Shown here one piece after another: positions 7,122 through 9,688 of a stretch of 64,000 nt of DNA. The stretch comes from Halosimplex litoreum (GTDB lineage: Archaea; Halobacteriota; Halobacteria; Halobacteriales; Haloarculaceae). The translations under genes and the position numbers were made by a program. The stretch spans positions 1,859,836 to 1,923,835 of the forward strand of contig NZ_CP065856.1 of the NCBI RefSeq assembly GCF_016065055.1, written 5' to 3'. Positions within the stretch are counted from its first letter, which is position 1. Each line of letters opens with the position of its first letter. The notes below the pieces were generated by a model. The model was given only the letters and a program-made list of their open reading frames with translations. It ran no database searches and was not told where the DNA came from.

Positions 7122-7283
7122 TAGTGGGGGTACACGTCAGTTTTATCAGTGGTCGGGGTCCTGGCGGTCGGCTGTCGCGGCGGGTGGCTGGCGGGTCGAT
7201 TCGCGGAGTTCGGTGGCGGTCGGGCGGGAGAGCGGCGCGGGCGCACCGGTGGGTTCTTGCCTGGCGGCGGGCGACTGTCGGGC

Positions 7284-8348
7284 GTGTACGTCCTCGAACT
7301 GGGCGGGCAGGACGACGATTTCGCGGCCTGCGAGGCGTCGAGCGCCGCCGCGGGGGTCGAGGTAGTCGGCGCCGGGCTGGCGACCGCGCGCGCGGTGACC
7401 GACCGCGTCCGCGATCTCGCCTACGTCCACCGCGCGAGCGAGGTGGTCGGCCACTGCGACCCCGACGTGGCCGGCGCGCGCGCGACGCTGGACGCCGCGA
7501 CCGTCGACCGCGAGGGAACGGTCGCCGTCCGCGCCGTCGACGTGCGCGCGACGACCGGCGTGGACACTCAGCGCGTCGAGCGCGAGCTGGGACAGGTGCT
7601 CGTCGACCGCGGTTTCTCCGTCGATCTCGACGACCCCGACCACGAGTTGCGCGCGCTGTTCGCTGGGCCGCCGGGCGCCGACAGCACCGCGGAGAACGCG
7701 GAGTCGGACGCGGCCGGACCGGGCGACTCGGACCCGGGCGTCCTCGACGACGGGGCGGGCCTCTGCGTCCTCGGCTGGCTCGACGTCGAGAGCGAGCGCG
7801 GCTTCGGCGACCGCCGTCCGACGGATCGGCCCTTCTTCCAGCCGGGGAGCATGGACCCGAAGCTGGCCCGCGCGCTGGTGAACATCGCCGGCGCGCGGGC
7901 GGGAGCGACCGTCGTCGACCCGATGTGCGGCACCGGCGGAGTGCTGTTGGAGGCCGGTCTCGTCGGCGCCCGGGCGGTCGGCTCGGACGCCCAGCGGAAG
8001 ATGGCCCGCGGGACGCGCGCGAACCTCCGAGATCGGTTCGGCGAGGACGGCGATTTCGAGGTCTGCCGCGGCGACGTGACGCGCCTGCCGTTCGTCGACG
8101 ACTTCGCGGACGCCGCCGTCTTCGACGTGCCCTACGGGCGCCAGTCGAAGATCGAGGGCGACTCGCTGGCCGATCTGGTGGGGAGCGCGCTCGCCGAAGC
8201 GCGCCGGGTCGCCGCCCGCGCGGTGGTCGTCGCCGACCGCTCGTGGGAAGCCGAGGCGAGAGACGCGGGCTGGACCGTCGAGGAGCACTTCGAGCGGCGG
8301 GTTCACCGGTCGCTGGTTCGGCACGTGCTGGTGTTAGATCGGGAGTGA
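7284..8348 (+). CDS. tRNA (guanine-10-N2) methyltransferase
   Basis: Methylates G10 of tRNA with S-adenosylmethionine (archaeal Trm-G10 family; product m2G or m2,2G). The 354-residue protein has an N-terminal THUMP-type region starting YVLELGGQDDDFA and a C-terminal Rossmann methylase with the SAM motif VVDPMCGTGG (about 210-219) and the catalytic DVPYGRQ at 281-287, the DPPY-like motif of amino-methylases. The GTG at 7284 is chosen because family proteins begin at this YVLELGG; the frame is open upstream to 7149, but those 45 residues show no family features. An unusual foldback element lies just downstream. Confidence 0.88.
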   Translation: MYVLELGGQDDDFAACEASSAAAGVEVVGAGLATARAVTDRVRDLAYVHRASEVVGHCDPDVAGARATLDAATVDREGTVAVRAVDVRATTGVDTQRVERELGQVLVDRGFSVDLDDPDHELRALFAGPPGADSTAENAESDAAGPGDSDPGVLDDGAGLCVLGWLDVESERGFGDRRPTDRPFFQPGSMDPKLARALVNIAGARAGATVVDPMCGTGGVLLEAGLVGARAVGSDAQRKMARGTRANLRDRFGEDGDFEVCRGDVTRLPFVDDFADAAVFDVPYGRQSKIEGDSLADLVGSALAEARRVAARAVVVADRSWEAEARDAGWTVEEHFERRVHRSLVRHVLVLDRE

Positions 8349-8392
8349 GGCAGTGGGACCGCTACTGCGACCCCTGCTGTCCCGCGAATACG

Positions 8393-8575
8393 AACAGCGT
8401 GAAAGCCCCGACCCTTTCATTCCCACCCCCAGAGACCGGCGATCAGCCGGCACGGGGGGAATGAAAGGGGCCGACTGCTCCGGGAAGACGGGTGACGCGA
8501 GCACCACAGTGACCGACGGGAACGAGGAGCGCAGCGAACCCCTCGACCGGAGCAGTCGGGGGCTTTCACGCTGTT
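8393..8575. repeat. Foldback element forming a three-way junction
   Basis: A 183-base element between trmG10 and thyA. Outer arms are a perfect 17-base inverted repeat: AACAGCGTGAAAGCCCC (8393-8409) and its complement at 8559-8575; weaker complementarity continues outward for some 40 bases. Inside are two separate hairpins: CCCTTTCATTCCC (8412-8424) with 8457-8469, capped by CCGGC-gatca-GCCGG; and a 13-base stem 8471-8483 with 8547-8559. The result is a stem closing two arms. It contains no recognisable gene. It could be a structured RNA, a non-autonomous mobile element, or a terminator complex. The 340 bases between the genes hold nothing else I can identify. Confidence 0.75.
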
Positions 8576-8689
8576 TCACGCGGTACTCCGGGCAGCGGTC
8601 GCGATACTGCAGTCGTATCTCCCCGTCGTACGGCACACTCCAGCGTCGACAGGTGGGTTTACAACGACCGCGCGCAGATACGCGTCACA

Positions 8690-9688
8690 ATGCAGCAGTA
8701 TCTCGATCTCGTCCGGGCGGCCGTCGCGGAGGGCACCTACAAGCCCAACCGGACGGGCGTGGACACGCTCTCGACGTTCGGCGCGCACTACGAGGTCGAC
8801 CTTCAGGAAGGGTTCCCTCTGCTCACCACGAAGGACCTGTCGGGCTATCGCTGGAACTCGCTCATCCACGAGCTCCTGTGGTACTTCTCCGGCGAGGAGC
8901 ACATCCGGAATCTCCGCGAGGAGACGAAGATCTGGGACGCCTGGGCCGACGAGGAAGGCCACCTCGACACCGCCTACGGCCGCTTCTGGCGCCGGTACCC
9001 GATCCCGGAGGAGGGCCTGGAGGGGGAGTCCTGGCCCGACGACGCCCATCGCTGGGTCAACGACGACGAGAACACCTTCGACCAGTTCCAGTACGTGCTG
9101 GACACGCTGCGGGAGAATCCGCAGTCGCGCCGCATCGTCGTCAACGCCTGGCACCCCGCCAACGCGACGACCAGCACCCTCCCGCCCTGTCACTACACCT
9201 TCGTCTTCAACGTCCAGGGCGACCGGCTGAACCTCCATCTCACTCAGCGCTCGGGCGATATCGCGCTGGGGATCCCGTTCAACGTCGCCGCCTACTCGCT
9301 GGTGACCCACATCGTGGCACAGCGGACGGGCTTCGAGGTCGGGAGCTTCTCCCATTCGGTCGTCGACGCTCACGCCTACTGCGGCGAGGGCGCTCGCGGC
9401 GAGTGGTACGAGGCAAACCGTGCGGAGTTGCGCGAACGGATGGCCGCCGTCGACGACCGCGAGGGGTACGACGGCGTGCGCGACTGGATCCTGACGGAAG
9501 CGCCCGCCGAGCCAGGAGTGGAGAACGCCGACCACGTCCCGAACCTGCTGGCGCAACTGACCCGCGAACCCCGCGAGCGCCCGACGATCGAGGTGGCCGA
9601 CGAGCCGATCGACGAGCTGACCTACGAGGACGTCGCGGTGCGCGACTACGACCCCGCGCCCGGCCTCGATTTCGCGGTCGCCGAGTGA
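8690..9688 (+). CDS. thyA: Thymidylate synthase
   Basis: Converts dUMP to dTMP with methylene-tetrahydrofolate as methyl donor and reductant, producing dihydrofolate. The 332-residue protein carries the active-site LPPCHYTFVF with nucleophile Cys167, the phosphate-binding Arg pair in PQSRRIVVNAWHP, and the folate-site sequence RSGDIALGIPFNVAAYSL. The C-terminal part (from about 220) has an insertion, GEGARGEWYEANRAELRERM and following, that makes it longer than the 264-residue E. coli enzyme, as in other haloarchaea. folA begins 13 bases after the stop, so the dihydrofolate made here is recycled by its neighbour. Confidence 0.96.
   Translation: MQQYLDLVRAAVAEGTYKPNRTGVDTLSTFGAHYEVDLQEGFPLLTTKDLSGYRWNSLIHELLWYFSGEEHIRNLREETKIWDAWADEEGHLDTAYGRFWRRYPIPEEGLEGESWPDDAHRWVNDDENTFDQFQYVLDTLRENPQSRRIVVNAWHPANATTSTLPPCHYTFVFNVQGDRLNLHLTQRSGDIALGIPFNVAAYSLVTHIVAQRTGFEVGSFSHSVVDAHAYCGEGARGEWYEANRAELRERMAAVDDREGYDGVRDWILTEAPAEPGVENADHVPNLLAQLTREPRERPTIEVADEPIDELTYEDVAVRDYDPAPGLDFAVAE

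Follow-up and report, generated by a model that had tools for sequence, protein, structure and literature searches.

An intergenic segment upstream of thyA in Halosimplex litoreum folds into a perfect outer stem that encloses two hairpins, and the question is what such an ordered structure is and how it came to be there. The segment occupies positions 8393–8575 of the window, the whole 64,000-nucleotide stretch of DNA that was analysed. The original prediction offered three readings: a structured non-coding RNA, a non-autonomous mobile element, or a regulatory leader for thyA.

Structure of the foldback

The host spacer of 341 bp lies between a UPF0020/RMKL-like methyltransferase gene (7149–8348) and thyA (8690–9688), which is followed by a DHFR gene; as predicted, no real gene was found within 8393–8575. 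The proposed helices are located where expected, and the outer stem is perfect over all 17 bases. Thirteen pairs had been assigned to each hairpin, which holds for hairpin 1, whereas hairpin 2 has 12 pairs and then continues inward via inner stems and internal loops with conserved sequence. The junction leaves four bases unpaired in total, in line with the few that had been anticipated. The folding energy of 8393–8575 is −124.7 kcal/mol, compared with −74.3 ± 4.5 kcal/mol for dinucleotide shuffles (z = −11.1), and none of the 200 shuffled sequences was as good, which bears out the impression of order far beyond chance. The weak outward complementarity seen earlier also proved to be real: inverted ACCGC boxes, about 6 and 24–30 bp beyond the outer stem, are common to copies of the element. 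The features of the window copy and its surroundings, all on the + strand, are as follows.

8393–8409, +: outer stem, 5′ half, AACAGCGTGAAAGCCCC; the conserved terminus of the family (helix 1, with pairs nearly all kept in 30 full-length copies)
8559–8575, +: outer stem, 3′ half, GGGGCTTTCACGCTGTT; pairs with 8393–8409 (17/17)
8410–8411, +: junction and site of the missing left arm (arm A, a unit of ~105 bp in full-length copies), located by comparison with full-length copies
8412–8469, +: central arm (hairpin 1); CCCTTTCATTCCC at 8412–8424 pairs with GGGAATGAAAGGG at 8457–8469 (13/13), with a loop between
8463–8567, +: right arm unit (arm B); match to covariance model R1 at G000:C1:1868298–1868402, 116.8 bits
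8472–8483 and 8547–8558, +: stem of arm B (hairpin 2); CGACTGCTCCGG pairs with CCGGAGCAGTCG (12/12)
8350–8392, +: left sub-terminal flank, an eroded inverted ACCGC-box region that probably belongs to the element; outer boundary inexact, flank signal also in other copies
8576–8625, +: right sub-terminal flank, the inverted counterpart with GCGGT boxes; outer boundary inexact
8658–8664, +: TATA-like TTTACAA, ~26–32 bp ahead of the thyA start; beyond the downstream side of the element, listed as context and not as part of it

Comparison of thyA loci

The location of the element directly upstream of thyA had led to its reading as a regulatory leader of this gene. The TATA-like box at 8658–8664, which is likely thyA's own promoter, lies downstream of the element, and a T-rich counterpart of the box was found in the relatives G001, G004 and G005, all without the element. 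Among the seven Halosimplex relatives studied (G001–G007), none has the element directly before thyA. The same methyltransferase neighbor precedes thyA in G001, G002, G003 and G005, and in G004, G006 and G007 the gene is located behind other genes. In addition, approximately 20 copies of the element stand next to unrelated genes. The downstream TATA-like box and the element-free relatives thus lead us to reject the leader reading, which is extremely improbable.

The spacer between the methyltransferase gene and thyA in the window is ~266 bp longer than its equivalents in G002 and G003. The G003 spacer contains the word GGAACCGCAGAC, which is similar to the element flank, and therefore loss rather than recent gain is possible at the thyA site of G003. 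In the window, no clear target duplication was seen at the thyA site; the flanks are eroded and do not fix the exact insertion boundary. The G003 genome also contains a second, divergent thyA-like gene with 69% DNA identity (L181, G003:C1:2262058–2262754).

A family of cloverleaf repeats in haloarchaea

A blastn search with a 203-bp stretch yielded 43 matches at about 20 places of the 4.16-Mb Halosimplex genome that contains the window (G000), and the same query had matches in 15 of 20 relatives. The search for copies suggested with the original prediction thus revealed about 20 copies dispersed between the genes of this genome, with many more in relatives, and the element is not a singular occurrence.

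The full-length copy is a cloverleaf of ~270 bp (about 260–274 bp), in which the conserved 17-bp outer stem encloses arm A, a central arm and arm B in this order. Arms A and B are each a ~105-bp hairpin unit of the form GAAAGGGGC-arm-GGGGCTTTC. They are mirror images of each other, arm A being the inverse of arm B, so that the full-length element is nearly its own reverse complement; arms found together as a pair are inverted in 104 of 104 cases. The window copy is a reduced form that has lost arm A, which leaves a three-way junction instead of a cloverleaf, and it could itself be an ancient relic in decay. Different pieces are missing from other copies, such as L025 with a length of 120 bp. 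In several copies (L017, L021, L023, L118 and L120), a second, imperfect outer terminus is present ~63 bp beyond the first one, which suggests an older, larger inverted end.

The element is free of genes. The arm model has 33 matches in the own genome, and the terminus AACAGCGTGAAAGCC forms about 19 inverted pairs there. All of these pairs are 120–440 bp apart and therefore too narrow for a transposase gene; no autonomous copy with the same ends around a gene was found in this genome. The copies are intergenic, and 15 of the 20 in the own genome are located between genes of the same direction. No excess of copies was observed there at convergent gene ends, and a terminator at such ends was rejected.

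The arm covariance model found matches in 124 of 145 haloarchaeal genomes, representing 51 of 59 genera. A genome often contains more than 25 arm copies, and some have at least 27 arm matches, while the copy number among related genomes ranges from 0 to more than 30. When haloarchaea and other members of the phylum were scanned together, the arm model matched 17 of 19 haloarchaea and none of ~101 genomes from outside this group. Copies are also present on plasmids, including megaplasmids, of Natrinema, Halobaculum, Haloarcula, Halorussus and other genera, where there is almost never an annotated feature beneath them; a plasmid search with one divergent copy as the query gave no match. A halovirus or phage origin was rejected, as no match was found in phages, nor in viral contigs in an exact-pattern scan. 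The whole window contains no match to an Rfam covariance model at the gathering score, and a relaxed threshold gave chance-level matches only; membership in an Rfam structured RNA family is thus rejected. No description was found in the literature searched, and this repeat of most haloarchaeal genera is apparently undescribed.

Compensatory evolution of the arms

In the alignment of 30 full-length copies, 95.8% of the cells of the cloverleaf are standard pairs, and the central-arm stem (helix 5) is 97.6% paired. Two-sided changes, a count that includes inherited changes and hence events that are not independent, number 346, compared with 116.7 ± 8.3 in shuffled alignments and 26–46 with the partners slid. 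A single long hairpin, in which arm A pairs with arm B, is only 75.4% paired and has fewer two-sided changes than its own shuffles; each arm therefore pairs with itself. Class-wide, 31 arms, nearly all of them from other genera, are 95.9% paired, with 173 two-sided changes against 47 in shuffles, in an alignment fitted to the covariance model, which favors structure; the MAFFT alignments A1 and A2 are model-free. Covariation, proposed earlier as a check on the fold, is thus abundant both among the full-length copies and across the class. Two of the conditions that would have refuted the prediction, a lack of further copies and a lack of compensatory changes, are therefore clearly contradicted.

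The stems themselves are highly variable. The 140 distinct arms have 93 different 12-base stem sequences, 94 of the arms being perfectly paired over all 12 positions, and only 57 mismatches occur in 1680 stem cells. For 22 arm stems that differ from each other in at least 4 of 12 positions, 95.1% of the pairs are Watson-Crick, compared with 45% after shuffling. Conservation is higher in the internal loops, where GCAAGCAC and GCGCAGCGA hardly vary, than in the stems. Among the pairs of the variable stem, the eighth is T-A in 135 of the 140 arms. The tips are C[GNA]G triloops in 55 of 80 cases; C[GNA]G or GNA triloops form very stable DNA mini-hairpins.

The scarcity of intermediates in the stems could have a neutral origin, if the copies were relics in which replication template switching between the hairpin halves repeatedly corrects one half from the other and keeps the stems paired. 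Slippage products directly beside some copies (tandem repeats of 15-bp and 24-bp units) would be in agreement with such a process. However, switching does not account for internal loops that vary less than the stems, and the same fold is kept in 51 genera; we regard this origin as very improbable.

In the arm's own orientation, G-T mismatches are more frequent than A-C mismatches (22 to 8, p = 0.016), and one inner arm pair is T-G in 15 of 31 arms but C-A in none. Both observations suggest that the arm is recognised in the form of one specific single strand, which may be RNA or single-stranded DNA alike. An RNA function is the main rival to the reading that we prefer. The repeats could be structured non-coding RNAs or elements of untranslated regions, such as a stabiliser, a processing site or a two-way terminator, and their mirror arms would work whichever strand is transcribed. 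Such a function would be consistent with the strong covariation of the full-length copies and the class-wide arms, with the preference for G-T over A-C, with the conserved arm pair that admits T-G but not C-A, and with the intergenic placement, largely between same-direction genes. However, the arms are on opposite strands, so that any transcript has one arm in the wrong sense, and no significant bias towards the sense strand was seen for lone arms (16 sense and 9 antisense, p = 0.23). The copies have no constant promoter or flank, no enrichment at convergent gene ends and no Rfam match, and their GNA tips are typical of DNA mini-hairpins and not of RNA tetraloops. Altogether, an RNA function seems possible but unlikely.

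Shared sites, inversion and arm replacement

According to the flanking genes, many element sites are common to several species, which means that either movement is slow or the copies are retained by the host. The arms at shared sites are mostly no more alike than those of unrelated copies; the identity between arms of non-orthologous copies has a median of 0.67 and a 95th percentile of 0.81. Clearly same arms (0.93–0.99 identity) occur in swapped positions in five of five locus pairs (L013/L030, L165/L033, L010/L029, L022/L143 and L024/L074), hence the whole element was inverted in place between species. The pair L018/L045, with arms 0.85–0.89 identical, is unswapped. Arms are also replaced and lost: the outer stem alone is left at one orthologous site (L132), and one half at others (L118, L062, L107 and L133). 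In L048 (1501–1770), arm A is inverted within its own stem and carries the arm-B strand, and the stem is still paired.

Since sites common to many species may reflect retention by the host, the repeats could be chromosomal DNA sites maintained for nucleoid, topoisomerase or recombination binding (a role put forward for bacterial BIMEs), and not selfish repeats. The class-wide retention and the conserved loops, together with one conserved T-A pair amid variable stems, would fit such a role. It is harder to reconcile with copy numbers from 0 to more than 30 among related genomes, with the empty thyA site in relatives and with the copies on megaplasmids, and no candidate protein was found. We consider a host-maintained site quite unlikely.

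Comparison with known mobile and palindromic repeats

In the search for a mobilising enzyme, the arm model gave no match at 11 tnpB/tnpA loci of the own genome (ten tnpB and one Y1 transposase, the single Y1 of this genome), and blastn of the elements against these loci showed only a short nested hairpin module to be shared. As no arm is near the ten tnpB loci, an IS605/TnpB right end was rejected. A survey of Y1 transposases found only the IS200-type subclass in Archaea (PMC6006769).

The palindrome-associated transposable elements (PATEs), which occur in Haloquadratum and other haloarchaea, have no inverted repeats at their ends, and palindromes near these ends are shared with IS605-type transposons (PMC3119063). 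Similarly to the cloverleaf family, they are haloarchaeal, transposase-free and palindromic, with many heterogeneous copies; core deletions leave terminal-only remnants, and their palindromes are hit by small inserts (PMC3119063). In contrast to PATEs, the cloverleaf family has 17-bp perfect inverted termini and, except for the nested hairpin module, no link to IS605. It thus differs in both defining features of PATEs, the lack of inverted ends and the palindromes shared with IS605, and was not assigned to them.

SMRs have terminal inverted repeats unrelated to transposons, produce no target duplication and are too short to code, and their mobilisation was called ‘enigmatic’ (PMC3119063). The cloverleaf family has inverted termini and no gene, with eroded flanks and an inexact insertion boundary. 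However, identities of >95% are common among the SMR copies of one type (PMC3119063), whereas the arms studied here, with their median identity of 0.67 between non-orthologous copies, covary and are part of a fixed cloverleaf; by homogeneity, they are not SMRs. The layout resembles that of the REP/BIME repeats with RAYT transposases, intergenic mosaics in which inverted palindromic units alternate in orientation (PMC2817692, PMC6006769): the copies are intergenic and their paired arms are always inverted. The arm units are ~105 bp with internal loops, compared with 20–40 bp for REPs (PMC2817692, PMC6006769), and no RAYT was identified for them, the single Y1 transposase being at a locus devoid of arms. 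The repeats resemble MITEs in being short, gene-free and dispersed, with inverted ends, but no parent transposon with the same ends was found in the own genome, so that MITE status by shared ends was rejected; no clear target duplication was seen at the thyA site. No named family accommodates the repeats fully, and they are best classed as a new family of interspersed palindromes from haloarchaea.

We lean towards the view that the family is a transposase-free, modular foldback repeat of haloarchaea, PATE/SMR/BIME-like, that is recognised as a folded single strand. The strand could be single-stranded DNA exposed at replication or in an extruded cruciform, and less likely RNA. Recognition would involve the conserved internal-loop and tip sequences and a protein acting in trans; this protein, or recombination across the inverted repeats, may then account for the spread, the flipping and the exchange of arms. 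Owing to the mirror symmetry, each strand has one arm in the correct orientation, which would make the element orientation-neutral. Of the three readings proposed initially, a non-autonomous mobile element with old terminal repeats comes nearest: the dispersed copies and the thyA site empty in relatives agree with it, but no mobilising enzyme was found. With dozens of natural structural replicates, the family could help to find the protein or process by which folded single strands are read in archaea, and could serve as a model for the spread of transposase-free palindromic repeats.

Nested hairpin modules and adjoining tandem repeats

Longer arms contain double-hairpin inserts of ~47–62 bp (L010, L019, L028, L045, L116, L137 and L153). 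The insertion sites are few and recurrent: after GACG, after AAG, in the GCG^CAG internal loop, after GCGAG, and at the tip. In L116 and L137, the module holds a further double hairpin inside. A double-hairpin module akin to the arm inserts adjoins a tnpB gene (L210:1880–1950, G000 near C1:924469) and sits within a longer hairpin (GCCTCGGGGTC / GACCCCGAGGC), much as an SMR-A inserted in an IS605-type end would.

Fungal mitochondrial DNA also contains mobile double-hairpin elements, which insert where structured sequences are unpaired and also into each other. They are much smaller than the repeat family described here, and we know of no cloverleaf host element for them. The SMR-A repeats of Haloquadratum, ~110-bp units with inverted ends and no known transposase, prefer palindromes as insertion sites, namely those of PATEs and of IS605-type transposons (PMC3119063). 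The nested modules behave in a similar way. We tentatively speculate, regarding it as doubtful, that the genomes of most haloarchaea may contain recursively branching folds, with hairpins inserted at set positions of other hairpins and with whole cloverleaves that flip and swap arms in place, kept by an enzyme that reads folded single-stranded DNA. The family provides a test case for why hairpin modules recur at identical arm positions.

Tandem repeats abut the outer stem in L022 (1726–1859, about nine copies of a 15-bp unit), in L012 (1367–1482, about eight copies of a 15-bp unit) and in the right flank of L011 (about four copies of a 24-bp unit), as if the foldback provoked slippage.
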